This document shows positions 784-35,272 of a stretch of 64,000 bases of DNA, piece after piece. The notes under the pieces were generated by a model. It made no database searches, was not told the origin of the DNA, and worked only from the letters and a program-made list of their open reading frames with translations. Position numbers and translations under genes: made by a program. Where the stretch lies: the NCBI GenBank assembly GCA_025924715.1, contig JAICHV010000002.1, forward strand, positions 1 through 64,000, written 5' to 3'. Position 1 is the first letter of the stretch. Each line of letters begins with the position of its first letter. Origin of the DNA: Alphaproteobacteria bacterium. Its GTDB lineage: Bacteria > Pseudomonadota > Alphaproteobacteria > Micropepsales > Micropepsaceae.

Positions 784-1458
784 TTAGCCCCTGTGGCGGT
801 CTTTGAGCGCGCCCTCGACCTTTGGAGAAACAAGGGCCAGGGCTGCCGCGAACGCCGCGTCTATACCCAAATCGGAGGTATCGAGCAAGCCGGCGCCGGG
901 GGCCTGGATCAGGGGAGAGACGGCCCGGGTCTTGTCGGCCAGGTCGCGGGCCACAAGTTCCCGCAGCAAGTCGCCTTCATCGCGGACAATGCCCATCGCC
1001 TGTAATTCCTGCCAGCGGCGGTGGGCGCGGATTTCGGGCCGGGCATCGACATAGAGTTTGGCGGTGGCGTCGGGGGCAATGACACTGCCGATATCGCGCC
1101 CATCCATCACCGCGCCGGGGCTGCCCCCCGGCGGGCGGGCCAGGAAGCCGCGCTGGAAATCCAAAAGGGCCGCGCGCACCGCCGGGATCGCGGCAACTTG
1201 CGAGGCGGCCCTGCCGATCACATCGGTGCGGATCGAGGGACCGCCGGCCAGGGTCAGATCGATGGTCTGGGCTCCGCGCAAGGCATCATCGGGATTGTTG
1301 GGATCGCCTTTGGCTTCCAGCACCGCCAGCGCGGTCAGCCGATAGAGCGCCCCGGAATCCAGATGGGCGAAATGAAAATGCGCCGCGAGTTTTTTGGCCA
1401 GCGTGCCTTTGCCTGACGCGGCGGTGCCATCGACGGCGATGACAATAGGTTTGCTCAC
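784..1458 (-). CDS. cmk: cytidylate kinase
   Basis: VSKPIVIAVDGTAASGKGTLAKKLA P-loop, DSGALYR and MDGRDIGSVIAPDA motifs; GTG start preferred over the track start at 1524. Confidence 0.95.
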   Translation of the reverse strand: MSKPIVIAVDGTAASGKGTLAKKLAAHFHFAHLDSGALYRLTALAVLEAKGDPNNPDDALRGAQTIDLTLAGGPSIRTDVIGRAASQVAAIPAVRAALLDFQRGFLARPPGGSPGAVMDGRDIGSVIAPDATAKLYVDARPEIRAHRRWQELQAMGIVRDEGDLLRELVARDLADKTRAVSPLIQAPGAGLLDTSDLGIDAAFAAALALVSPKVEGALKDRHRG

Positions 1459-1523
1459 GGTATCCCCCCCTCCCGCCTGGGGAGGGAGCGAATTTCTGCG
1501 TGGGCGTTTGCGGTATGTCGGCA

Positions 1524-2870
1524 TCAGCTCTTCACCCCTTCCAACACCGCACCCAAGGCCCGCATCTTGCCTTCGTAATCGGGGAAGCTTGTCGCGATCA
1601 TGGTCACATCGTCCACCGTCACCGGGTTTTCGCTGGCCAGGCCCATGGTGAGGAAGCTCATGGCGATGCGGTGGTCCAGATGGGTGGCGACCGTGCCGCC
1701 GCCGGGCACTTTGGGCATCCCGCGCACGGTGAGATTGTTGTCGCTTTCATCTGCCTCGACGCCGTTGGCGGCAAGGCCCGCCATGATCGCAGCCAGCCGG
1801 TCGCTTTCCTTCACCCGCAATTCTTCCAGCCCCATCATCACCGTCTGCCCCCGCGCAAACGCCGCGGCGACGGCCAGGATGGGATATTCGTCGATCATGG
1901 ATGGCGCGCGCTCCGCCGGCACGGTCACGCCCTTCAATTGGGAATGCCGCACCGTCAGATCGCCGATCTCCTCGCCGCCGCTGATACGCCGGTCCGTGAT
2001 CTGAATATCGGCGCCCATCTCCAACAAAGTCTGGATCAGCCCGATGCGGCGCGGATTGAGCAGAATGGCCGGCAGCGAAATTTCCGATCCCGGCACGATC
2101 AACCCCGCCACCAGGGCGAAAGCGGCCGAGGATGGATCGCGCGGCACTTCCACCTGGGCCGCCTTCAATCGGATGCCTCCTTGCAGCACGATGGTCTCGC
2201 CCTGCCCCGCCGATCCAACCGTGATCTTGGCCCCGAAAGCGCTCAGCATTTTCTCGGTATGGTCGCGCGTCAGCGCCGCCTGGCTGATGCGGCTGATGCC
2301 ATCGGCGTTCAGCGCCGCCAGCAGCAGCGCCGACTTCACCTGGGCCGAAGCCACCCGCACTTGATAGGTGATCGGTTTGGCGGAGGCGGCGCCATGCAGC
2401 GTCACCGGCATCAGCGCCTTGGGGCCATCGCCTTCGAAGCGGGCGCCAAGCTGGGTCAAAGGTTCGAGCACCCGCGCCATCGGGCGGCTGCGCAGGCTGG
2501 CGTCGCCGGTAAAGATGGCGCGGATCGGCATGCCGGCCACGGCGCCCATCACCAGCCGCGAGCCCGTGCCGGACTTGCCGAAGTCCAGGGGCGCCGCCGG
2601 GGTGGTCCAGCACGCGCCCGTCACGCGCCAGGCGCCCGCGCCTTCCCGGACCAGCACCGCGCCCAGCGCCCGCAGCGCGCCGGCGGTGCTGAGCACGTCT
2701 TCGGATTCCAGCAAGCCCGTGACGGTGGTTTCCCCCGCCGCCATGGCCCCCAGGATCAGAGCCCGCTGGGAAATGGATTTGTCGCCCGGAACCTCAAACA
2801 GGCCCTTGAGAGCGCTAGCCTTTCGGGCACGAAGGGCGCGGGCATCGGGGTTGGCCTGTCCGGGTCGCAT
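1524..2870 (-). CDS. aroA: 3-phosphoshikimate 1-carboxyvinyltransferase (EPSP synthase)
   Basis: VPGDKSISQRALILGAMAAGETTVTGLLESEDVLST, GNSGT-like GKSGTGSRL, RVKESDRLAA motifs. Confidence 0.96.
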   Translation of the reverse strand: MRPGQANPDARALRARKASALKGLFEVPGDKSISQRALILGAMAAGETTVTGLLESEDVLSTAGALRALGAVLVREGAGAWRVTGACWTTPAAPLDFGKSGTGSRLVMGAVAGMPIRAIFTGDASLRSRPMARVLEPLTQLGARFEGDGPKALMPVTLHGAASAKPITYQVRVASAQVKSALLLAALNADGISRISQAALTRDHTEKMLSAFGAKITVGSAGQGETIVLQGGIRLKAAQVEVPRDPSSAAFALVAGLIVPGSEISLPAILLNPRRIGLIQTLLEMGADIQITDRRISGGEEIGDLTVRHSQLKGVTVPAERAPSMIDEYPILAVAAAFARGQTVMMGLEELRVKESDRLAAIMAGLAANGVEADESDNNLTVRGMPKVPGGGTVATHLDHRIAMSFLTMGLASENPVTVDDVTMIATSFPDYEGKMRALGAVLEGVKS

Positions 2871-2978
2871 GGAAGGGCTTGGTTACCTTTGACAAGGGGG
2901 ACTTATTTGTTTTGACAAGGGCTTGGGCCCGTGGCAAACGCGCCCCCTCGATAACCTCTTCTTCACGGGAACAGCACC

Positions 2979-3488
2979 TTGGTCAAGGCAGATCTTGGAA
3001 CAAAACGGGCCTGCCCCAGCTGCGCCGCCCGCTTCTACGACCTCACGAAGCGGCCGATCGAATGCCCCAAATGCGGCTACAGCTTTGAGCCGGAGACGCT
3101 TTACAAGCAGCGCCGCGGCCGTCAGCCCGAACCGGTCGCCGATGCCGGCGTGGTCCGCGCCGCCGAGACCGAGGACGAGGACAGCGACGACGAGAACGAG
3201 GACGCTGAGTCCGAGGCCGAAGACGAGGAAGAAGAAACCGTCGAGGAAGCTCCCCTGGTGGTCGCCGCCACCGGCGAAGATGAAGACGAAGCCGCCGAGG
3301 AAGAAGAAGCCGAAGCGGAATCCGGCATGTCGGTGGTCGAAGGCGACGAAGACGTCGCCATCGAGGACATCGAAGTGGAAGACGACGAGGAAGAAGAAGG
3401 CGATGACGGCCTTCTGGCCGAAGTCGAGGACGAAGAAGACGACGTTGCCGGCATCATCGATCCCGGCATCGCCAAGGACGAGAGTTAG
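2979..3488 (+). CDS. TIGR02300/FYDLN-type acidic protein
   Basis: KADLGTKRACPSCAARFYDLTKRPIECPKCGYSFEPE zinc-ribbon-like N-terminus followed by a long Glu/Asp-rich tail. Confidence 0.9.
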   Translation: MVKADLGTKRACPSCAARFYDLTKRPIECPKCGYSFEPETLYKQRRGRQPEPVADAGVVRAAETEDEDSDDENEDAESEAEDEEEETVEEAPLVVAATGEDEDEAAEEEEAEAESGMSVVEGDEDVAIEDIEVEDDEEEEGDDGLLAEVEDEEDDVAGIIDPGIAKDES

Positions 3489-3587
3489 TTTATATTGGTC
3501 GCATTGCCGGACGGAAAACCGCTTCACACTTTTCCTGGCAATGCTCTTGAAGTCCCTGTCCGCGCCCAACGGACAGGTCATTGGCAC

Positions 3588-3663
3588 GGGGCCATAGCTC
3601 AGCTGGGAGAGCGCCTGCATGGCATGCAGGAGGTCAGCGGTTCGATCCCGCTTGGCTCCACCA
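3588..3663 (+). tRNA. tRNA-Ala (anticodon GGC), CCA encoded
   Basis: GGGGCCATAGCTCAGCTGGGAGAGCGCCTGCATGGCATGCAGGAGGTCAGCGGTTCGATCCCGCTTGGCTCCACCA; full cloverleaf, anticodon loop ATGGCAT. Confidence 0.97.
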
Positions 3664-3696
3664 ATTCCCAGCGCAGCGGGAATTGGTGAGCCAAGC

Positions 3697-3885
3697 GCCG
3701 AGCGGGCGCTAGCGCCAGCGTAGCGCGCCCGCGAGGGTGGCACCGCCCTTAATTGTAAAACTCCGAATTACTCCCAAACCGCCGAGCGGGCGCTGGGCGG
3801 CTTAGCGACAGCGTCGTGGCCGCGCGTAGCGCGCCCGCGAGGGTGGCGCCGCCCTACATTATAAAATCCCGATTTGCTCCCTGAT
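3697..3885. repeat. Tandem pair of GC-rich palindromic intergenic repeats (REP-like)
   Basis: Two related units starting GCCGAGCGGGCGCT... and ending GCGCGCCCGCGAGGGTGGC(A/G)CCGCCCT..ATT.TAAAA at ~3697-3775 and ~3781-3885, each with an internal GCGGGCGC/GCGCCCGC palindrome. Confidence 0.7.
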
Positions 3886-3901
3886 AGCCGAGCGGTTTTG
3901 C

Positions 3902-5179
3902 CTAGCACGGCAAGTATTGCACTCTTTCCGCCCGGGAACGGTGCAGCGGGAAAGCGGGCACCGGCTCGAAGCCCGTCAGCGGCGCGCCGGACAGGGCTTT
4001 TCCCAGACCAAACCGTACGCCGCACCCGCGCGCGGTTTGGACCTGGCCCTCGCTGTCGAGTCCGGCCAGGCAAGTAAACCAGGGTCTGTCCTTGGCCCGG
4101 CGCACCAGCATCTGCGCGCCGGCAAGGCTCTTTTGCGGCGTGGCATATTGCGCAATCACCGCCGCGAGGCCGACGGTCGCCAAACTCGCGTCCAGGCTTG
4201 GAATACTGCGCGGGTTGTCGAACTCCACGATCGTGCGCAGGCCCGGCATCTTTAGCATCGCCAGCAGTTCGGCCAGCCGCCCGCTGGGAATGGTGGACGG
4301 CACTTGCTCGATCTTCAGCAGGATCGGGCAAGTCGGCGTGATCTTCAACGCCTTGAGCGCCGTGATGTAGCGAATGCGCGGGGACAGGGTCATCAGGGTG
4401 TCGTGTGAAACGCCGACGGTCAGGCCGCAGACTCCCTGGGCATCGTGGATCTTGCGGCTATATTCGCCGGCCGCGCCCAGCAAGGCGACTTCCAGCTCCA
4501 GCGCATCAAGCTCCCGATGCAAGCCCAAGGCGCGCGTTGCACTTTCGGCCGGCCTGCCATCTGTCCTGGTATAAAGCGCGATCAGGAGAGTCTTGCTTTC
4601 GTTTTTGGCCAGCTCCCAGACCGGAAAAAAGCCGACGGCATATCCACAGGCCGAGGCCAGCTCACACGCTCCCCGCAAGCCGCTTTGGGTCGTGCCGATG
4701 GTTTTGGCCCCGCTCAGTTCGGGCGCGGATCGAAAATGCAGCGTCTCCACGCCGGTCGTGTCGAGCGAGGATATGATCCGGTCCGCCGCCATTGTGGTGA
4801 GCACGGCAATCGGACCGGGCACCGGGCCCACCACGCTTTTGAGCGTGACGTCCTCATCCTGTTCCCCAAACACCAGGGCGCAAACCTGCTTTGCCACGGA
4901 GGCGCAACACAGCACGGCTTCTTCGTGGGAACAGCCGTGAAAGGTCGCGACATAGGCAACCTCGCCGATCCGGATGAAACTGTCCTGCGGTCCCTGCACA
5001 TTGCGCAAGGCCCGCTCGAACAACTGATGAATGAGATCGCGAAGCCGAGGCCATTTCGTGCCCAGCCGTTTTTTGATGGGTATCAAATTCAACAGGTTCA
5101 GCTTGCCGGCGCAGATCTGCATCGCCGCGCTGAGATCGTCTTCGGGACGGGGCTGTTTGCCGCTGGCGACGCGCTCCAT
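3902..5179 (-). CDS. Hypothetical protein with degenerate GGDEF-like and EAL-like regions
   Basis: 'FIRIGEVAYVATFHGCSHEEA' resembles a degenerate RxGGDEF segment; C-terminal 'FTCLAGLDSEGQVQTARGCGVRFGLGKALSGA' resembles the EAL-domain AEGVEteeql..lGvd..QGyl segment. Catalytic residues absent. Confidence 0.5.
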   Translation of the reverse strand: MERVASGKQPRPEDDLSAAMQICAGKLNLLNLIPIKKRLGTKWPRLRDLIHQLFERALRNVQGPQDSFIRIGEVAYVATFHGCSHEEAVLCCASVAKQVCALVFGEQDEDVTLKSVVGPVPGPIAVLTTMAADRIISSLDTTGVETLHFRSAPELSGAKTIGTTQSGLRGACELASACGYAVGFFPVWELAKNESKTLLIALYTRTDGRPAESATRALGLHRELDALELEVALLGAAGEYSRKIHDAQGVCGLTVGVSHDTLMTLSPRIRYITALKALKITPTCPILLKIEQVPSTIPSGRLAELLAMLKMPGLRTIVEFDNPRSIPSLDASLATVGLAAVIAQYATPQKSLAGAQMLVRRAKDRPWFTCLAGLDSEGQVQTARGCGVRFGLGKALSGAPLTGFEPVPAFPLHRSRAERVQYLPC

Positions 5180-5409
5180 CGAAATCGCTTGCTCCCTGCC
5201 GGACAACGCAACAACGCCGGCTCAATGCAATTCTATTCTGATGCGCTTGACGTGTGCCCGATGTACACGAGCGAAATTAAAAAATTGCGTAGCAAGGTTC
5301 CGCCGCCGTGGAACTTTGACAGCTGCGCAGATGAAAACCGGCAAGCAACACGCGAAGCCGGCAGCGCACGCACCCGGCGCGTGCGTTGGGAATGGCAAAC
5401 AGCGCATCC

Positions 5410-5428
5410 AATAGCCATTATGGCTATT
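5410..5428. promoter_or_regulatory. Perfect 9-1-9 palindrome, candidate operator
   Basis: AATAGCCAT-T-ATGGCTATT in the gap between the fadL-like gene and the downstream minus-strand gene; no T-tract to suggest a terminator. Confidence 0.45.
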
Positions 5429-5454
5429 GCGGCGGCCGCCGGACGGGCAAGCTT

Positions 5455-6744
5455 TCAATATTTGTAATGGGCCGACAGCGCCAGGATATCGACCGCCACC
5501 GTATAGGCGCCCGACAGCGTGATCGCATGGGTGATCGGGTCCGTGCTGTTGGCGCTGCTGTTCATGTTCGGGCGATCGAGCGCGAAGGAATGGCCATAGG
5601 CGCCGTCCAGCACCATGTGGTCGTTCCATTGATAGGACGCACCCAGCCCCAGCAAATAGCGGTCGCCATCGGGCAGGCTGACGGCGCGGAAGCGGCTGAC
5701 CACCGGGGTCTGGTCCCAGGCAAGCCCGGCTTTGAGCATCCAGGCATCGTCGAGGCGATAGGTACCACCCGCGGCAATCATCCAGCTGTCGCGATACCTC
5801 TCGTCATTGACGAAAGGCTGGTTCTGACTCTGGATTACCACTTGGCGAAATCCGCTCCACTGACTGAACTGTGCGTCGGCCGACAAAGTGAGATCGGGCG
5901 CGATCTGGCTGGTGATGCTGAGGCCCGAGGTCGCCGGCAGCCGCGCCTTGGCGCTGGCAGGGCTGTCGACCAGACCGAGCAGCGGGCTGACGCCGGCAAA
6001 ACTCAACCGGCCCTTGATATCGTGATCGATCGCCGAGCGGTAAGTGAGCCCCAGCCTGGTGTGGTCGTTCCATTGGGCGATGAGACCAAGATTGAACCCG
6101 AAAGCCCAATCATGGGCCTGGAAGCGGTAGATCCCATCCGGCGCCGGGCTTTGGAAGATCACCGCCTGGGGGATGGCGCTGCTGACATCGAGCTTGAGAT
6201 ATTGCATCGAAACGCCGGCGCCCACCGAAAACATGTCATTGATGCGCACGCCCAGGCTGGGATTGATGTCCACGCCCCGGGCCGAAGTCTTCAGGCCCAG
6301 ATAGCGGCCAACCCAATTGGAGTCATAGGAATTGGCGTTGCCGAAGGGCGCGGTGACCGCCATGCCCAGGCCGACATCCTGGTTCAGCTTGAGCACCGCA
6401 TAGATATTGGGCACGGCGGCGCTGAGGCCGCTGTCGCCGCCGTCATCGCCCCCGATCTGCGACCCGCGCAATTGGGCGCTGCCCTTGAAGTGCATCGACG
6501 GCAGGATCACCGCGGCGCCGGCTTCCAGTTCGGACCCGCGCAGCAGCGGCAGGCCGGCCGGATTGGAAAAGGCGGTATTGGCCGCGTCGGCCCGTGAGCC
6601 ATTGCCGGCATAACTGGTCGCAACCGCATCGGCGCTGTTTTCCCGCACCATGAAGCCGGCCGCCAAAGCGGCCTGCGATCCCGCGGCGACGGCCGCCACG
6701 CCCAGTGCGATAGCCAAAAGAAAAGAGTTGCGCCCCATCGTCAT
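5455..6744 (-). CDS. OmpP1/FadL family outer-membrane transporter
   Basis: Signal peptide then AAGFMVRENSADAVATSYAGNGSRADAANTAFSNPAGLPLL (FadL N-terminal hatch motif), aromatic C-terminus HYKY. Confidence 0.88.
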   Translation of the reverse strand: MTMGRNSFLLAIALGVAAVAAGSQAALAAGFMVRENSADAVATSYAGNGSRADAANTAFSNPAGLPLLRGSELEAGAAVILPSMHFKGSAQLRGSQIGGDDGGDSGLSAAVPNIYAVLKLNQDVGLGMAVTAPFGNANSYDSNWVGRYLGLKTSARGVDINPSLGVRINDMFSVGAGVSMQYLKLDVSSAIPQAVIFQSPAPDGIYRFQAHDWAFGFNLGLIAQWNDHTRLGLTYRSAIDHDIKGRLSFAGVSPLLGLVDSPASAKARLPATSGLSITSQIAPDLTLSADAQFSQWSGFRQVVIQSQNQPFVNDERYRDSWMIAAGGTYRLDDAWMLKAGLAWDQTPVVSRFRAVSLPDGDRYLLGLGASYQWNDHMVLDGAYGHSFALDRPNMNSSANSTDPITHAITLSGAYTVAVDILALSAHYKY

Positions 6745-8838: not shown

Positions 8839-10350
8839 TTGCTCCCGGACTATACTTTGACAGCTTTTCTCGACGCCCGCTCCCTCCCCGCCGGCACCTC
8901 ACTTACCCCCGATCTTGCCATCGTGGGCGGCGGCCCTGCCGGCATCGCCCTCGCTCTGTCCCTGGCCGATAGCGGCCATGACATCCTGCTGTTGGAATCG
9001 GGGGGCCGGGCCTTCGATTCGCTCACCCAGGCCATGTACCGGGGCAGCGAAAGCGGAATTTCCTATGTGGCGCTGGACAGCGGCAGGCTGCGCTTCCTGG
9101 GCGGCAGCAGCAATCATTGGGGCGGCTGGTGCCGCCCCCTGGATGCGATCGATTTCGAGCGCCGCGACTGGATCCCCGCTTCGGGATGGCCCTTCGGTAT
9201 CGAGGAATTGAAGCCCTATTTCCCCCGCGCCCAGGAGCTGGTCGAGGCCGGCCCCTGGCTTTATGACAGCGCCGCGCCCGAACTGGCAGCCGCGGGAACG
9301 GTGCTGCCGCTGGCGCCGGGCGGCATTTACACCAGCTGGTTTCAATTCTCCAAAACCCGCGACAGCGTGCTGCCGACCTATTTCGGTCATCGTTATGGCG
9401 ACGATCTGAAACGCGCCGCCAAGATCACGCCCCTGCTCCACGCCAATGTCACGGCGCTGCGCCTGGCGCCCGGTGGCGCGCATGTGCAGCGGCTGGATGT
9501 CGCCACCCTGACCGGCAACCATCTGACCGTGACACCGCGCTTTACGGTGCTGGCCTGCGGGGCGATGGAAAATGCACGGCTGCTGCTGGCCTCGAACGAC
9601 GTGATCAAACCGGGCATCGGCAATCAGAACGATCTGGTCGGACGTTATTTCGCCGATCATCCGACGCCGCGCGAAGTGGCCACTCTGGTGCTGTTCGATG
9701 GCGGCCTGGCGCCTTTTTATGTCAACAACACGCCGCTCAAGAATGGCGCGATCGTGCTCGCGGCGCTTTCGCCCCATGCCCAGTTCGCCCGCAGCCAGCG
9801 CGTGGCGGGTTCGCTCACCACGGTGGAAAATCCGGTGGAGCTGGACGAATTGGGGACCGCCGCGGTGGTCGCCACCTCCCAGGCGCTGGGCGTGGACGCC
9901 AGCAACGCCAAGGCCTGGTCGCTGGGCTGCGGCATGGAATTGATGCCCGATCCCGACCGGCGCTTGACCCTGACCGGCGAGAAAGATGCCTTGGGTTTGC
10001 CGCGTCTGAAACTGGAGATGCGGATCAGCGATGCCGACTTCGCGCAATACCGGCGGACCCTGGTCGAGCTGGGCCGGCAATTGCTGGCAGCGCGGCTAGG
10101 CATGGTGCGGATCAATCCTCACGACCCGCACCAGGCGATGGATTGGGGCAATCATCATCTGGGAACCACCCGCATGAGCGAGGATCCCAAAAACGGCGTG
10201 GTCGATGCGCAGGCGCGGGTGCATGGTGTGGACAATCTCTATGTCGCCGGCAGTTCGGTGTTTCCCACTTATGGCTCGTCCAATCCCACCATGAATCTGA
10301 TCGCCTTGACCTTGCGTCTGGGCGATCATCTCAAAAAGGCGATGGCATGA
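8839..10350 (+). CDS. GMC-family FAD-dependent oxidoreductase
   Basis: DLAIVGGGPAGIALALSLADSGHDILLLESGG Rossmann motif; NHHLGTTRMSEDPKNGVVDAQARVHGVDNLYVAGSSVFPTYGSSNPTMNLIALTLRL C-terminal GMC motif. Confidence 0.93.
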   Translation: MLPDYTLTAFLDARSLPAGTSLTPDLAIVGGGPAGIALALSLADSGHDILLLESGGRAFDSLTQAMYRGSESGISYVALDSGRLRFLGGSSNHWGGWCRPLDAIDFERRDWIPASGWPFGIEELKPYFPRAQELVEAGPWLYDSAAPELAAAGTVLPLAPGGIYTSWFQFSKTRDSVLPTYFGHRYGDDLKRAAKITPLLHANVTALRLAPGGAHVQRLDVATLTGNHLTVTPRFTVLACGAMENARLLLASNDVIKPGIGNQNDLVGRYFADHPTPREVATLVLFDGGLAPFYVNNTPLKNGAIVLAALSPHAQFARSQRVAGSLTTVENPVELDELGTAAVVATSQALGVDASNAKAWSLGCGMELMPDPDRRLTLTGEKDALGLPRLKLEMRISDADFAQYRRTLVELGRQLLAARLGMVRINPHDPHQAMDWGNHHLGTTRMSEDPKNGVVDAQARVHGVDNLYVAGSSVFPTYGSSNPTMNLIALTLRLGDHLKKAMA

Positions 10351-10703
10351 GCGCGGTTTCGCGGCGGCTGACGATCGGCGGTCTGGCAGCGGCATTGCTG
10401 GCGGCGGGCGGCGCGGTGTGGACCCTGCATCCGTTCCGCAAGACCTATGCGCCCACGCCTTACGACGATCTTCTTGGGCAAGTGATGGACCGCCAAGCCG
10501 CGGCCAAGCTGGGCGCGGCGGTGGCCAAGAGCCGCCCGGGATTGACGCCGGCCAGCCTCGCCGCCCAGCTGCGCCGGCCCGGTCAAACGCTTAAGGCGCG
10601 CGCCGGCCGCGATGCGGCGGAAAACCGCCTGATCGAGGCTGAGGGGTGGGTTTTGCCGCAAAGCGTGGGACTTTATGCGGCCCTGGCGGCCCAGTTCGGC
10701 TGA
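10347..10703 (+). CDS. Small RR-leader protein translationally coupled to the GMC oxidoreductase
   Basis: ATGA overlap with the preceding gene; SRRLTIGGLAAALLAAGGAVW signal-like N-terminus; ends ...VEAEGWVLPQSVGLYAALAA-type tail. Confidence 0.65.
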   Translation: MSAVSRRLTIGGLAAALLAAGGAVWTLHPFRKTYAPTPYDDLLGQVMDRQAAAKLGAAVAKSRPGLTPASLAAQLRRPGQTLKARAGRDAAENRLIEAEGWVLPQSVGLYAALAAQFG

Positions 10704-10812
10704 GGCTTCATCTTTCGTAAACCATGTTGCTTAAACCCACCGCAATCGCTGCTCTTTAGATTCCGCTCCTGCGAGGGGGGTGGCCGCTTCGCTCTGCTTG
10801 CGAAGGTGGTCC

Positions 10813-13800
10813 GTGCCGGTTTCCTATCTGTCCAACGCCCAGATCGCCGGCTTGCCGGGCTATGCGCTGCGCAACCTGACCGCGAGCCAGATCGGCACGC
10901 TCAGCGCCACCCAGATCGGCGCCATCAGCACCAGCGGCATCAACGCCTTGGCCGACACCCAGGTGACGGCGCTGTCGACCACACAGTTGACCGGCCTCAC
11001 CACCACCCAGATTCCCAATTTCGTGCCGTCGATCCAATTCGACACGGCGCAATTGCTGGCGTTGAGCGCGGCCCAGGTCGGCGCGATGAGCGCCGGTCAA
11101 TTGGGCGCGATGGATTCCACGCACCTGTCCGTTCTCAGCACCGCCCAGTTCGGCGCCCTCAATCCGATCAATTTCGCCGGCTTCAGCGCCACCCAGGTGG
11201 CCGGGCTCGCCACCACCCAGATCGGCAGTCTGTCGGCCACCAAGCTGGGCAATTTCTCCGCCACCGAGATCGCCGAATTCACCGCCACCCAACTCGCCAG
11301 CCTGGCCGTTCCCAATGTCCGGGTGCTGACCTCCAGCGATTTCGCCGCCCTGAATGACACCCAGATCCAGGCCTTCACCACGACGCAGATTCAGGGGCTG
11401 ATCCTGGGGCAACTGAGAAGTCTCAGCGCCACAGATTTCGCCCGGCTGACACCGGCCCAGGCGGGGGCCCTGACCGCCTCGCAGCTCGGCGCGGCGCCGG
11501 TCACCAGCTTGAATGCATTGGACGCGACGCAAATCCAGGCGCTGGGCGATACCCAGCTGGTCGGCCTCACCACCACCCAGGTCGCCGGGCTGTCCACCAC
11601 CAGTTTCGGCGCTTTCACCGCCACCCAGGTGGGCGATCTCAGCGCCGTGCAATTCGGCGCGCTCTCGGCCGCCAATGCGGCTTTGCTGACCTCGACGGAA
11701 TTTTCCGCGCTCAGCACCACCAAGATTCAGGCGATGAGCACGGCGCAGATCGCCGGGCTGAGCGCAGCGGCCGTGGCGGCGATGGCGACCACCCAGATCG
11801 CCGCCTTGCTCAAGACACAAGTCGCCGCCCTCAGCACCACCAGCATGGGGCAATTTGATACCACCCAGCTTGGCGCCTTCAGCGCCACCCAGATCGGCGC
11901 TCTCACCAACAGCGAAATTTCGGCAATTTCCGGAACCGAGCTTTCCGTCCTCACCACCACCCAGCTTGGCGGCCTGAGCACCACCCAAATCCAGGGCCTT
12001 GCGGCCGGCGATATCGCCAGGCTGGCCGCCAGCCAGATTTCCGCATTGGCGGGGACGCAAATTCGCGCCTTCACCAGCACCGGCTTGAACGTTTTTGCCG
12101 ATACCCAGATTCAGGCGCTGAGCACCACCCAATTGGCCAGCCTCACCACCGGGCAGACCGGCGCCCTGGCCGATACGGTCTTCGCGGCTTTGAGCACCAC
12201 CCAGTTCGACAATTTCGCCACCACCCAGATCGCCGCCCTCTCCACCACCAATGCCGCCCAGTTCAGCGCCGGTGAAGTGCTGGGCCTGACCACTACTCAA
12301 ATCGGCGCCCTGGCCACCACCCAGATCGCGGCGCTGAACACGCTGGCCGCCGGCGCGCTGGCGACCACCCAGATCGCAAAATTGTCGTCCAGCCAGCTCG
12401 GCGCCCTCACCACCACCAGCATCGGACAATGGAACACCACCCAGGTGCAGGCTTTGACGCCGACCCAGATCGGCGCGCTCTCCAACAGCGATCTGTCCGC
12501 GATTGTCGATCTGACCGGGTTGACCACCACCCAGATCGGCGGCCTCACCACCACCCAGGTTCGCGGCTTGGCGGCGGGCGATGCCGGCACGCTGGCGACC
12601 ACCCAGCTCGCGGCATTCTCGGCCGCCCAGATCGGCGCCCTGACCACCACCAATCTCAATCTGCTGAGCGGCGCGCAAATCGAAAGCCTGGATGCCACTC
12701 AGTTGGCGAGCGGGTTGACCACCACCCAGGCCGCCAATCTGGCCGATACCAGCTTCGCCTATCTCACCGCCAGCCAAGTGGATGCCTTGGCCGGCAACCA
12801 GCTTGCCGCGCTCTCCACCACCAATGCCGGATCGCTCAGCGCCGCCGAGGTGGTAGGGCTCACCACCACGCAGGTCACGGCCCTGGCGACCACACAGATT
12901 TCCGCTTTGAGCGCCACCGCGGCGGGCGCCTTCACCACCACCCAGATCGCCAATCTCGCCGGCACCCAGCTCACCGCCCTTACAAGCACCAACATCGGGC
13001 AGTGGAACACCACCCAGGTGCAGGCGCTGGACGCGGCGCAGATCGGCTTGCTCTCGAACGCCGATCTTTCGGCAATCGTCGATCTTTCCGGTCTCACCAC
13101 GACACAGATTGGCGGCTTGGTGACGACGCAGCTGCAAGGCCTGGGATCGGCCGATGCCGGCCAGCTCGCCACCACCCAGCTCGCCGCCCTCGTCTCCACC
13201 CAGATCGGCGCGCTCAGCAGCACCACACTCAATACGCTGAGCGGCGCGCAGCTTCAGGCGCTGGATGTCGTGCAATTGGCGAGCGGTCTCACCACCACCC
13301 AAGCCGCGGCCTTGGCCGACACATCGTTCGCGGGTCTGAGTGCGGCGCAAGTGGACGCCTTCAGCACCAGCCAGCTCGCCGCCCTTTCCACCACCAATGC
13401 CGCGCAGTTGACCGGCACCGAAATCTCGGCGCTGACCACCACTCAGACCGGCGCCCTGGCGACGACGCAGATCGCGGTCTTAAACGCCAATGCCGCGGCC
13501 GCCCTGACCACCACCCAGATCGCCAATCTGGCGCTGACCCAAATCGGCGCCTTGACCGTTACCACCATCGGCCAATGGGGCAGCACTCAGGTGCAGGCCA
13601 TGAGCCCCGCGCAAATCGGCATTCTTTCCAATGCGGATTTGTCGGCGCTGGATCTGTCCGTCCTCACCACCACGCAAATCACCGGCCTGGCCGCCACCCA
13701 GCTTCAAGGGCTCAGCACCGGCGATGTGGGCGAATTGGTCACCACCCAGCTTGGCACTTTGGTCGCCAGCCAGATCGGCGCGTTTGGCAGCGCCAATCTG

Positions 13801-15213
13801 AATGCGCTCAGCAGCACCCAGCTTCAGGCCTTGGATGTCACCCAATTCGCCGGCGGTCTGACCACAACGGAAGCAGCTGCCCTGGCCGATACCAGCTTTG
13901 CCGGTCTCAGCGCGGCGCAAGTGGACGCGCTCGGCATCGGTCAGCTTGGCGCGCTGTCCACCACCAATATGGCCCAGTTCGGCGCCGGCGCCTTTGCCAG
14001 CCTGACCACCACGCAACTGGGCGCCTTCTCCGCAGACCAGATCGCGGCTCTGGGCGCCACCGCCAGCGCCGCCCTGGCCACCACCCAGATCGCCAGTCTG
14101 ACGCCGACCCAGCTCAGCGGCCTCAGCATCACCAGCATAGGCCTGCTGGACGTCACGCAGCTTCAGGCCTTCAGCCCGACCCAGATCGGACTGCTCTCGA
14201 ACACCGATTTGTCGGCGATCGCGGCGACCGAATTGTCGGCGCTGACCACCAGCCAGATCGGCGGGCTGACCACCACCCAAGTGCAGAATCTTTCCACCAG
14301 TGACTTCGCCAATCTGGTGACGACGCAGATCGACGCTTTCACGCCGGCGCAGATCGGCGCGCTCAGCACCACCAATCTGTGGACCCTGGACGACACCCAG
14401 ATCGGCAATCTCAGCACCACCCAGATCGGCGGCATCGCCGCGACCCAGCTCGCCAATCTGGACAGCGGCGATTTCGCCAAGCTGGCGACCACCCAGATCG
14501 CCGTGCTCAGTGCAACCCAATTCGCCGTCTTGCCTTATGCCGATCTGCTCTCGTTGGCCGATACCCAGATCCAAGCGCTCAGCACCACGCAAATCCAGGG
14601 CTGGAACACCACCGTGATTGGCGCCTTGACCGGCACCGATTTCGCCAGGTTGGCCGATACCCAAGTGGCCGCGCTGACCGCGGCACAGCTTGGCAGCCTG
14701 TCCAATGCCAATCTGGCCAGCCTCAGCACCACCGCCTTCAGCGCTTATAGCGCCACCCAGATCGGCGGCTTGCTGCCGTTCCAGTTGCATGCGTTGAACG
14801 CGACCGAGTTCTCCGCCCTGACCGACACCCAGTTCGCCGCCTTGTCGGCGCTGCAGCTCGGCAGCCTCACCACCACCAATCTGGAAACGCTCAGCGCCAC
14901 CCAAGTGGCGGCATTCAGCGTCACTCAGATCGGCGGCGTCACAGCCGGCCAGATGAACGGCTTCGATTCCACCTTCTTCAATGAACTGACGGCTACCGAG
15001 ATCGGAGCCTTGTCCAGCGCCGCCGTCGCCGCCATCGCCACCACCATCATCAACGGGCTTGATCCCACCCAGCTTCAATCGCTGAGCGTGGCCCAGATCC
15101 CCGCCCTTACCACCACGCAGATCTCCAGTCTCACCACCACCTTGGTGAACGCATTGACGCCGGCGCAGCAGGCGGCCTTGACGCCGGAACAGGTGCAGGC
15201 GCTGCCCGCCTAA
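10813..15213 (+). CDS. Giant octapeptide-repeat protein (~1466 aa)
   Basis: Continuous (L)(S/T)TTQ(I/L/V)xx 8-residue units over essentially the whole length; GTG 10813 with GAAGG upstream preferred over track start 10780. Confidence 0.85.
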   Translation: MPVSYLSNAQIAGLPGYALRNLTASQIGTLSATQIGAISTSGINALADTQVTALSTTQLTGLTTTQIPNFVPSIQFDTAQLLALSAAQVGAMSAGQLGAMDSTHLSVLSTAQFGALNPINFAGFSATQVAGLATTQIGSLSATKLGNFSATEIAEFTATQLASLAVPNVRVLTSSDFAALNDTQIQAFTTTQIQGLILGQLRSLSATDFARLTPAQAGALTASQLGAAPVTSLNALDATQIQALGDTQLVGLTTTQVAGLSTTSFGAFTATQVGDLSAVQFGALSAANAALLTSTEFSALSTTKIQAMSTAQIAGLSAAAVAAMATTQIAALLKTQVAALSTTSMGQFDTTQLGAFSATQIGALTNSEISAISGTELSVLTTTQLGGLSTTQIQGLAAGDIARLAASQISALAGTQIRAFTSTGLNVFADTQIQALSTTQLASLTTGQTGALADTVFAALSTTQFDNFATTQIAALSTTNAAQFSAGEVLGLTTTQIGALATTQIAALNTLAAGALATTQIAKLSSSQLGALTTTSIGQWNTTQVQALTPTQIGALSNSDLSAIVDLTGLTTTQIGGLTTTQVRGLAAGDAGTLATTQLAAFSAAQIGALTTTNLNLLSGAQIESLDATQLASGLTTTQAANLADTSFAYLTASQVDALAGNQLAALSTTNAGSLSAAEVVGLTTTQVTALATTQISALSATAAGAFTTTQIANLAGTQLTALTSTNIGQWNTTQVQALDAAQIGLLSNADLSAIVDLSGLTTTQIGGLVTTQLQGLGSADAGQLATTQLAALVSTQIGALSSTTLNTLSGAQLQALDVVQLASGLTTTQAAALADTSFAGLSAAQVDAFSTSQLAALSTTNAAQLTGTEISALTTTQTGALATTQIAVLNANAAAALTTTQIANLALTQIGALTVTTIGQWGSTQVQAMSPAQIGILSNADLSALDLSVLTTTQITGLAATQLQGLSTGDVGELVTTQLGTLVASQIGAFGSANLNALSSTQLQALDVTQFAGGLTTTEAAALADTSFAGLSAAQVDALGIGQLGALSTTNMAQFGAGAFASLTTTQLGAFSADQIAALGATASAALATTQIASLTPTQLSGLSITSIGLLDVTQLQAFSPTQIGLLSNTDLSAIAATELSALTTSQIGGLTTTQVQNLSTSDFANLVTTQIDAFTPAQIGALSTTNLWTLDDTQIGNLSTTQIGGIAATQLANLDSGDFAKLATTQIAVLSATQFAVLPYADLLSLADTQIQALSTTQIQGWNTTVIGALTGTDFARLADTQVAALTAAQLGSLSNANLASLSTTAFSAYSATQIGGLLPFQLHALNATEFSALTDTQFAALSALQLGSLTTTNLETLSATQVAAFSVTQIGGVTAGQMNGFDSTFFNELTATEIGALSSAAVAAIATTIINGLDPTQLQSLSVAQIPALTTTQISSLTTTLVNALTPAQQAALTPEQVQALPA
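11845..14700 (+). repeat. Higher-order repeats of ~190-192 aa (570-576 nt) inside the octapeptide-repeat gene
   Basis: The marker IGQWNTTQVQAL...QIG.LSN.DLSAI recurs at 11845 (variant), 12421, 12994, 13567, 14137 (variant); spacings 576, 573, 573, 570 nt. Confidence 0.85.
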
Positions 15214-15223
15214 CACCGCAATT

Positions 15224-16231
15224 TCAATTTTGCGGCGGGAACAAAACGCCGGGCACTTTAAGCTCGAACCCGAACGGCATCAGCGCGTTGAGGGTCGCAA
15301 GCTTGAGGCAAGCCGGAATGGCCGGCAGCGGCTGCGTGTCCTCGATGGCCTGGTTGACCCGATCTTCCAGCAAAAACAGATCCTGGCGCGAGCCCAAAGG
15401 GACTGTCATCTTGCCGTCGCGCGTTGCCGCGACCGTGGACGGGATATCGAAGACCAGGCGGTCCGGTTCCAACGCGCCAGCGGCATCGGCCTGCAAGGTA
15501 CCGGCGGCAAGAGGCACCATGTCGGGAGTCTTGTCGGAAGTTTGAGTCACCACCTCATAATTCCACTGATTGGCGGCAACACGGGTGAAGGTGAACGTAA
15601 ACGGGATTTGCCGGCCATTATTGGCGGCGATGCGGTAAGTCCGCATCGTCCGGCTGCCCGCCACCGCATGGACCAACACTTTGCCCGCCGGGTTGGAAAC
15701 AAAATGCAAGGTGATCACGCCTTGGATGTTTTTTTCCTGCGCCGCATCGGGGTAGCGCGCGTAGCGCTCGATCGCGCGATGCACACGCTCTTTATAGGCG
15801 TCGATGGTCTCGCAATTGGGATCTGGCGGCGGTTTGGGCGCAGCGGCGGTGCGTATGCCCTGGCCGCCATTGCCGTCGCCGCCACCGCCTGCCGATGACG
15901 GCATCACCCCTTGCGGCGTGCCGGACAGCGCGCTCTGCGGGGCGGGCGCGATGTCGATTTGCGGCGGCGCCAGATCGGACGGCTTGGGCGCCACCAGTTT
16001 GGGAATGGGAAGCGGCAAAGGAGGGCTTTTGTGTTCTTTCAAAAGCGCCAGCTCCACCGGCTTTTGGGCCGGAATTGGCAAGGACTGCTCGCGCAGGCCC
16101 AGAACAATCAGGACACCCAGCACCAGGTGAAGCAACACGACGAGGGCGCCGGCCCCCAGCTTCTTTCCCCATGCGGATGGACCGGGCGCGAAACGCTCGG
16201 GGGAGAGGCGGTTCTTATCAATTGGCGACAT
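15224..16231 (-). CDS. TonB-family-like protein with an insertion in the C-terminal domain
   Basis: N-terminal TM (GAGALVVLLHLVLGVLIVLGL), Pro-rich periplasmic linker, YPDAAQEKNIQGVITLHFVSNPAGKVLVHAVAGS TonB-C-like segment; terminal ATLNALMPFGFELKVPGVLF. Confidence 0.7.
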   Translation of the reverse strand: MSPIDKNRLSPERFAPGPSAWGKKLGAGALVVLLHLVLGVLIVLGLREQSLPIPAQKPVELALLKEHKSPPLPLPIPKLVAPKPSDLAPPQIDIAPAPQSALSGTPQGVMPSSAGGGGDGNGGQGIRTAAAPKPPPDPNCETIDAYKERVHRAIERYARYPDAAQEKNIQGVITLHFVSNPAGKVLVHAVAGSRTMRTYRIAANNGRQIPFTFTFTRVAANQWNYEVVTQTSDKTPDMVPLAAGTLQADAAGALEPDRLVFDIPSTVAATRDGKMTVPLGSRQDLFLLEDRVNQAIEDTQPLPAIPACLKLATLNALMPFGFELKVPGVLFPPQN

Positions 16232-16284
16232 CGGCAATCCCAAGCCCTAACCCGCGATGCGACGCTGCCCGGAGCGCAGATTAC

Positions 16285-34012: not shown

Positions 34013-35272
34013 ATGCCGCTCACAAACACAGCGATTCAAAACGCGAAGCCATCTGGGAAGCCCTACAAACTTTCCGATGGGAACGGCCTGTGGCTGGAAG
34101 TGCGGTCGAGCGGCGTAAAACTCTGGCGGTATCGCTATCGGATCGGCGGCAAGGAGAACGTGTTCGCCATCGGAGAATTCTGCAACGGCAAGCACCCTGC
34201 GCATATTTCGCTGGAAGCGGCGCGGCGCGCCCGAGATGAAGCCAGGGAACTCGTGCGAAAAGGCATTCATCCCTCACACAATCGGCAAGCCAAAGTACGA
34301 GATCAGGTCCGCAGCAACGGGAACACTTTTAAAGCCATCGCAGAGGAGTGGATTGCCAGGAAGTCTCCCAACTGGGTACCGAAGACCAAGGACCAGATCG
34401 TCCACGTCTTTAAGACTGACGTATTTCCAAGCATCGGCTCCCTCCCGATCACCGCTGTTACGCCTCCGGATATCCTGAAAATTCTTAATTCGGTAAATGA
34501 ACGGGGCGCCAACACGTTCGCTCATCTTATCAGACAGTGGGTTTCAGCAGTTTTCCGGTTTGCTATCGCAACCCTTCGTGCCGACAACGACCCAGCTGCC
34601 CCCCTTCAAGGGGCCATCATTCGCAACAAAACAAAACATTGCAGGGCCCTTTCTCGCGACGAACTAAAAGAGCTTTTAAACGCACTTCATACTTATGGCG
34701 GGGAGCCCGGCACCCTATTTGCGCTTCAACTCATATTGCTCACATTCGCCCGCACTATCGAGTTGCGCGCTGCAAAATGGGAAGAGTTTGACTTCAAGAA
34801 AGCGGAATGGCGTGTACCAGCCCAGCGCATGAAAATGCGCGAAGAACACGTTATCCCGCTTTCCCGCCAAGCAGTGGCGATTCTAAGGGCCCTGTATGTC
34901 ATCAATGGTCACCGGGAATACCTGTTTCCAAACCGCCGAGACCCCAAGCGCTATATCACTGCCACGACCTTGAATCGAGCTTTGGAGAGAATGGGCTTTT
35001 TAGGACAAGGTTCGATCGGTTTTTCTGCTCATGGTTTCCGGGCGACCGCTTCGACTATGTTGAACGAATCGGGATTTAGATCCGACGTGATTGAAAAGCA
35101 GTTGGCCCACCAGGAGCGTAACAAAGTTCGCGCAAGCTATAACCATGCCAGCTATATGGATGAGCGTCGGGTGATGATGCAGGTCTGGGCTGACATGATC
35201 GATGAAATTTCTGGCGAAACGTCCAATAACACGCTGGCGTTCGTACAATCGCTCACTTACCAGCCAGCCTAA
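34013..35272 (+). CDS. P4-type tyrosine recombinase/integrase (DUF4102 N-terminal)
   Basis: MPLTNTAIQNAKPSGKPYKLSDGNGLWLEVRSSGVKLWRYRYRIGGKENVFAIGEF; catalytic LLTFARTIELRAAKWEEFDF, HGFRATASTMLNE, QLAHQERNKVRASYNHASY. Confidence 0.96.
   Translation: MPLTNTAIQNAKPSGKPYKLSDGNGLWLEVRSSGVKLWRYRYRIGGKENVFAIGEFCNGKHPAHISLEAARRARDEARELVRKGIHPSHNRQAKVRDQVRSNGNTFKAIAEEWIARKSPNWVPKTKDQIVHVFKTDVFPSIGSLPITAVTPPDILKILNSVNERGANTFAHLIRQWVSAVFRFAIATLRADNDPAAPLQGAIIRNKTKHCRALSRDELKELLNALHTYGGEPGTLFALQLILLTFARTIELRAAKWEEFDFKKAEWRVPAQRMKMREEHVIPLSRQAVAILRALYVINGHREYLFPNRRDPKRYITATTLNRALERMGFLGQGSIGFSAHGFRATASTMLNESGFRSDVIEKQLAHQERNKVRASYNHASYMDERRVMMQVWADMIDEISGETSNNTLAFVQSLTYQPA

Follow-up and report, generated by a model that had tools for sequence, protein, structure and literature searches.

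A Giant Octapeptide-Repeat Protein of the ALTTAQ Family

What does a bacterium do with a protein of 1466 amino acids that consists almost entirely of eight-residue units? The question is raised by a gene at positions 10813-15213 of a 64,000-nucleotide stretch of DNA (contig JAICHV010000002.1 of assembly GCA_025924715.1, hereafter the window) from an alphaproteobacterium of the Micropepsaceae. The gene belongs to an existing, uncharacterised Pfam repeat family, ALTTAQ. Because relatives adjoin a GT41 glycosyltransferase gene and often a type I secretion system (T1SS) pump, we read the family product as probably a sugar-coated surface filament. With slightly better than even confidence we propose that ALTTAQ proteins are glycosylated by GT41 enzymes in the cytoplasm, leave the cell independently of Sec (through the T1SS where present) and form giant rods at the surface or in the matrix, the window copy being modified in trans.

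The match to PF20080 (ALTTAQ) reached 424.9 bits against a gathering threshold of 26.4 (E = 1.6e-130), with 46 stretches above threshold. About 180 octads with the consensus L-[TS]-T-T-Q-[ILV]-[AG]-[AG] make up ~98% of the protein, and autocorrelation gave a self-identity of 0.29 at a lag of eight residues, while the highest value in 200 shuffles was 0.16. This bears out an earlier note, made from the letters of the window alone, that had described a giant octapeptide protein here. The note had considered fold and function undescribed, which has to be narrowed: the repeat is a curated Pfam entry, and there is a solved structure (9zem) of a designed protein that shares the pattern. For the function the statement stands, as a literature search by the ALTTAQ name, the PF20080 accession and the repeat string returned nothing relevant and no paper giving a function. 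The Pfam entry, as output, assigns no function, and NCBIfam holds no model for the repeat.

A higher-order period of ~573 nucleotides, on which the earlier note had staked its description, is present. Five blocks of 190-192 aa (Table 1) share 46-71% identity at the protein and 57-71% at the DNA level. Block 2 is 71% identical to the next block, whereas other in-phase placements reach a mean of 25% and a maximum of 31%. Block positions and the length of ~192 aa were as described, but instead of ~24 regular octads the blocks of 190-191 aa contain 23 octads, one irregular unit of 5-6 residues and an extra Gly. Likewise, the landmark thought to mark all five blocks is exact (IGQW) only in the middle three, with MGQFDTTQ at 11845 and IGLLDVTQ at 14137.

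The 1466 codons between the GTG at 10813 and position 15213 are open, without an internal stop. This GTG is probably the correct start, since GAAGGTGG lies upstream and residues 3-120 pair one to one with the N-termini of homologues in the alignment (46-52% identity). In agreement with the earlier note, neither a Sec signal peptide nor a transmembrane segment was found at the N-terminus (VPVSYLSNAQIAGL), where a single-sequence model places helical octads already by residue 8. The window copy ends in octads, and no C-terminal RTX or calcium-binding secretion tail was found on it.

The Repeat Is Predicted to Fold Into a Screw of Short Helices

An AlphaFold2 model of two blocks (384 aa, window positions 12520-13671, with 60 further alignment rows) reached a predicted local distance difference test (pLDDT) of 95.9 and a predicted template-modelling score of 0.84, and showed one helix of 5-6 residues per octad throughout. 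The first 300 residues, modelled without an alignment, revealed the same short-helix pattern (pLDDT 84.9). These models strongly support a screw-like alpha-solenoid of stacked short helices; a solenoid had been among the suggestions of the earlier note. HeliScrew4 (9zem, E = 3e-10) is the best sequence match in the PDB; no other solved protein is clearly related by sequence. HeliScrew4 resembles the window protein in its eight-residue LTPEQIAA-type units, but it is 120 aa long and, judging from its name and sequence, designed, whereas natural ALTTAQ proteins span 1,300-4,500+ aa, are rich in Thr and carry super-repeats. A Foldseek search against the PDB (library to April 2026) returned distant alpha-solenoids only (mesothelin, template-modelling score <=0.39), so the natural fold seems to be without a solved natural example. 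9zem was absent among the Foldseek matches listed, its likeness to the window protein being one of sequence only. Viral structures gave no convincing fold match.

Other assignments were discarded. Matches of PDB sequences to leucine-rich repeat or Toll-like receptor folds were weak (E >= 0.017), and the AlphaFold2 model shows no strands; Pfam matches to trimeric Gp5 and TrcR domains were low-scoring and lay on low-complexity sequence; and 50,697 phage records gave no match that would indicate a phage origin. A single weak Pfam match that would point to TAL effectors occurred in the relative L104 (E = 0.003).

Super-Repeat Lengths Appear to Follow a Period of 3.42 Octads

Octad-level autocorrelation of 42 proteins, in which pairs inside duplicated blocks were left out, showed one peak only, at f = 0.292 per octad, which equals a period of 3.42 octads (bootstrap 95%: 3.41-3.43). 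Peak power was 0.577, while the maximum over 150 octad shuffles was 0.084. Individually, 31 of the 42 proteins reached p < 0.01; ten of the 41 other than the window protein did not, four of these lying near p = 1. The window protein by itself shows a weak signal (p = 0.03), probably because its irregular units shift the register. The residues that carry the period are Q5/D5, T3, G8, E2, D4 and R7/K7, which would correspond to charged stripes as opposed to Thr/Gln stripes. We take 3.42 to be the likely number of octads per superhelical turn. If so, each octad would turn the screw by ~105 degrees or by the alias of that angle, as sampling at whole octads cannot tell f from 1-f.

The best self-match lags of relatives from unrelated taxa are 17, 24, 48, 55, 62, 68, 41, 7 and 10 octads. 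All 47 leading super-repeat lags lie <=0.17 turn from whole turns, where chance would place ~40% within 0.2, the lags not being independent owing to shared ancestry. Super-repeat lengths across relatives thus seem to be near-integer numbers of 3.42-octad turns, and a 24-octad block of ~192 aa would make 7 turns. The earlier note had attributed the 192-aa blocks to duplication of whole blocks; duplication is strongly supported, but the block length also equals seven turns of a period found family-wide. Read in this way, the period would be a structural rule that the sequence by itself reveals, comparable at a higher order to the heptads of coiled coils.

ALTTAQ Genes Lie Beside GT41 Glycosyltransferase Genes

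ALTTAQ is patchy in alphaproteobacteria (6 of 289 sampled genomes). The contig scan for relatives was seeded by a single Niveispirillum segment, and the sample is therefore biased towards members rich in Thr; the genome of the window (G000) was searched by family. Relatives occur on plasmid records of Rhizobium, Shinella, Cereibacter, Pseudomonas and others, where they are, if annotated, mostly labelled hypothetical protein or 'heme utilization protein'. Further loci come from Acetobacteraceae, Betaproteobacteria and metagenome-assembled genomes (MAGs) of Magnetococcales and Spartobacteria. A same-genus genome encodes a 4,078-aa open reading frame (L066, 4883-17116, minus strand) that matches PF20080 once, weakly, and carries another repeat (SDFVTLADDSSVLDALTDSQIDGL...).

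Neighbours were assigned with local hidden Markov models built from annotated neighbours, and GT41 was by far the commonest neighbour family (27 groups, with 10 for the runner-up). Of 24 dereplicated loci with flanks of >=2.5 kb on both sides, 13 have a GT41 gene at a distance of up to 1.5 kb and 17 at a distance of up to 5 kb, usually as the immediately next gene; as most of these genomes encode 1-6 GT41 genes, we estimate that ~2% would be expected (p ~1e-24, ancestry ignored). The TPR-containing neighbour proteins are indeed GT41 enzymes, as PF13844 was above cut-off and TPR present in 10/10 scanned. GT41 was also carried by each of 22 further ALTTAQ genomes tested. Caulobacter vibrioides, included as a control genome, encodes PF20080 together with PF13844. 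Among the alphaproteobacteria, 89/289 genomes encode it overall, namely five of the six with ALTTAQ versus 84/283 of the others (Fisher p = 0.012).

The neighbour enzymes resemble O-GlcNAc transferase (OGT), matching XcOGT best (E = 7e-82) and also human OGT. Lys445, which aligns to the catalytic Lys of OGT (PMC4683255), and His276 are invariant in 14 aligned GT41s. For a bacterial enzyme of this GT41/OGT type, activity was not detectable in vitro (PMC4683255). Ser/Thr at octad positions 2-4 averages 68% in GT41-linked proteins and is 46-65% in each unlinked one (p = 0.001), a correlational difference that is confounded by ancestry. The Thr-poorer ALTTAQ proteins at L070 (7597-12663) and L076 (8477-13549) have neither GT41 nor T1SS neighbours, and L070 is preceded by a gene for a 1741-aa kinase/AAA/GAF/histidine-kinase protein.

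Type I Secretion Genes Adjoin ALTTAQ Genes in Several Lineages

T1SS genes for the ATP-binding cassette (ABC) protein and HlyD adjoin the ALTTAQ gene in about ten loci from several lineages (Niveispirillum, Roseomonas/Neoroseomonas, Magnetococcales, Cereibacter and Pseudomonas). In Roseomonas/Neoroseomonas the gene order is ABC-HlyD-ALTTAQ-GT41-GT41; in Pseudomonas, ABC, HlyD and TolC score above NCBIfam cut-offs, confirming their family identity there. EF-hand-like C-terminal tails occur in T1SS substrates, and EF-hand-like or RTX-like tails were found on members from betaproteobacteria and Pseudomonas (L079, L104, L106, L110, L116, L117 and L090). With their T1SS neighbours and EF-hand-like tails these members resemble giant T1SS adhesins of the LapA/BapA type. 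The latter, however, are built of beta-sandwich repeats, whereas ALTTAQ is predicted to be an alpha-helical short-helix screw, and the window copy has neither such a tail nor a T1SS neighbour. On Pseudomonas asturiensis plasmid pCC1524 (L082, 11798-19209) the ALTTAQ gene lies in three frames beside intact GT41 and T1SS genes, perhaps owing to decay or sequencing error.

These data bear on the possibility that ALTTAQ proteins stay inside the cell as solenoid scaffolds or filaments, on which GT41 acts, while the T1SS neighbours serve other cargo. Such a role would fit the missing signal peptide, the strongly predicted fold from residue 8, the cytoplasmic location of GT41 enzymes, the own-genus members without a T1SS, and L070 and L076 with neither neighbour. 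The gene order in Roseomonas and Neoroseomonas and the tails of the beta/Pseudomonas members argue against it, and we consider it unlikely.

The Window Copy and Its Genome

Flanked by a GMC oxidoreductase pair and a TonB-like gene, the window copy is isolated (Table 1). The TonB-like gene was rejected as a partner, as it is not conserved beside ALTTAQ genes elsewhere. G000 contains a second, larger ALTTAQ gene of at least ~2400 aa, split over contigs C32 and C49 (L009, 7011-12653; L010, 3-1802), whose ends both encode an identical ~40 aa. It is followed by a GT41 gene (1946-5572), a UDP-sugar epimerase-like gene and an FkbM-like methyltransferase gene. This GT41 gene, directly behind the second ALTTAQ gene, is exactly the one that G000 has. 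The GT41-linked form is also present in three genomes of the same genus (G007, G010 and G017), the copies in G007 and G010 being 3.2 kaa long.

The window copy might be a paralogue, decaying or neutral and with no role of its own, of the second, GT41-linked gene of G000. Its lack of a conserved neighbourhood, its irregular block units, its weaker 3.42-octad signal and the GT41-linked form in the three congeners point in this direction. We hold this to be very unlikely, given 1466 open codons, a conserved N-terminus and a confident AlphaFold2 fold.

Elsewhere in the window, the region 34013-62440 opens with a tyrosine integrase (34013-35272). Behind it comes a copper/heavy-metal block comprising a multicopper oxidase, CopD-like and TolC-like proteins, a P-type ATPase and two RND systems. 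This region looks like an integrated metal-resistance island.

Table 1. Features of the ALTTAQ gene and its immediate surroundings in the window
Feature	Position	Strand	Remarks
Upstream 118-aa protein	10347..10703	+	Overlaps GMC oxidoreductase stop; judged outside the system
Shine-Dalgarno-like GAAGGTGG	10802..10809	+	3 nt ahead of GTG; basis is sequence
ALTTAQ-repeat giant protein, 1466 aa	10813..15213	+	GTG start; PF20080 424.9 bits, 46 stretches
Conserved N-terminal cap octads (residues 1-120), without Sec signal	10813..11172	+	46-52% identity to the start of L111 (Caulobacter sp. MAG), L009 and L095 with matching residue numbering; helical from residue 8
Block 1, 192 aa	11845..12420	+	
Block 2, 191 aa, with IGQW landmark	12421..12993	+	Within AlphaFold2 model 12520-13671
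Block 3, 191 aa, with IGQW landmark, 71% identical to block 2	12994..13566	+	
Block 4, 190 aa, with IGQW landmark	13567..14136	+	
Block 5, 191 aa, most diverged (47-51%)	14137..14709	+	
C-terminal octads and stop	14854..15213	+	RTX/EF-hand tail absent, in contrast to beta/Pseudomonas members
Convergent downstream TonB-C-like protein	15224..16243	-	Weak match; judged outside the system

A Candidate Glycosylated Surface Rod

How might these elements act together? According to our proposal, each octad L-[TS]-T-T-Q-[IVL]-A-A would form a short helix with a Thr/Ser cap; stacked on one another, these helices would build a long screw whose surface pattern recurs every 3.42 octads. The TPR domain of the GT41 partner, an enzyme of the O-GlcNAc-transferase/SPINDLY type, would read the octad repeat, and the enzyme would glycosylate exposed Thr/Ser in the cytoplasm. 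Lacking a Sec signal, the product would next leave the cell, through a T1SS where one exists, and would end as a sugar-coated rod at the surface or in the matrix. The window copy would be an orphan paralogue, modified in trans by the sole GT41 of the genome. Family membership, repeats, predicted fold, periodicity and gene neighbourhoods are results of the analysis; glycosylation, export route, surface location and the function of the window copy are putative, the function of this orphan being the least certain part. Of the roles named in the earlier note, an adhesin or filament is consistent with the T1SS and GT41 neighbours of relatives, but the window copy has neither.

Modification in the cytoplasm before export has two precedents, from which the logic proposed here is taken. 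HMW1C reportedly glycosylates HMW1 as its dedicated cytoplasmic enzyme before export. As in our proposal, a cytoplasmic GT41 enzyme is paired with a giant exported protein; HMW1C is, however, an N-glycosyltransferase and HMW1 a two-partner-secreted adhesin, whereas the GT41 here is of the TPR/OGT type and the proposed exporter a T1SS rather than TpsB. The second precedent is FlmG of Caulobacter, whose TPR domain binds flagellin and whose O-glycosylation precedes export; the enzyme is assigned to the GT-B superfamily only (PMC7591256). TPR enzyme and O-glycosylation before export are shared with our proposal, but the ALTTAQ substrate is a giant solenoid.

Several observations weigh against the glycosylated surface rod. 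Besides the confounded Ser/Thr difference, 7/24 loci lack a GT41 gene within 5 kb, and neither GT41 nor T1SS genes were found beside the window copy in the 64 kb. The sole intact T1SS of G000 adjoins a protease-like gene. In G007 and G010 the TIGR01843 cut-off for HlyD was not passed by any protein, nor was a strong T1SS ABC protein found, hence no canonical T1SS. Finally, the ALTTAQ gene lies in or beside flagellar clusters in five unrelated lineages (L081, L073/L100, L109, L115 and L116), a placement left unexplained by the T1SS model. The neighbours are flhB and fliR in Ferrovibrio; flhA, flhB, fliR and fliI in Rhodovastum; fliF and fliG in the Spartobacteria MAG; fliF and flagellins in Agrobacterium rosae; and fliM, fliR, flgK and flgI in Duganella levis.

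These clusters raise the alternative that ALTTAQ proteins are flagellum-associated, using flagellar type III export and an FlmG-like TPR-glycosyltransferase and forming an appendage coat or flagellar accessory. The precedent of FlmG, a cytoplasmic TPR O-glycosyltransferase acting on flagellin before export (PMC7591256), and the lack of a canonical T1SS in G007 and G010 would agree with it. Near the other loci, however, no flagellar gene was found and about ten have T1SS genes; even Duganella levis, within its flagellar cluster, keeps the T1SS-type EF-hand tail. We regard this alternative as quite unlikely and retain the glycosylated surface rod as our working model.

More broadly, and only tentatively, the family may represent a widespread class of giant glycoproteins with the short-helix-screw fold, serving many bacterial GT41s as dedicated substrates and exported by T1SS. 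Their super-repeats would be quantised to whole 3.42-octad turns, so that charged residues (Asp5, Glu2, Arg/Lys7) line up in one stripe and Thr/Gln in another, on different faces. If true, these separate faces would serve glycan display and lateral packing. While the repeat family itself was already known, its fold prediction, the quantisation of its super-repeats and its partnership with GT41 and T1SS are new, and a surface-glycofilament role for ALTTAQ repeats appears to be previously undescribed. We know of no physiological substrates for most bacterial GT41/OGT enzymes; with the conserved ALTTAQ-GT41 gene pair, cultivable bacteria provide a specific candidate substrate that is rich in Thr.

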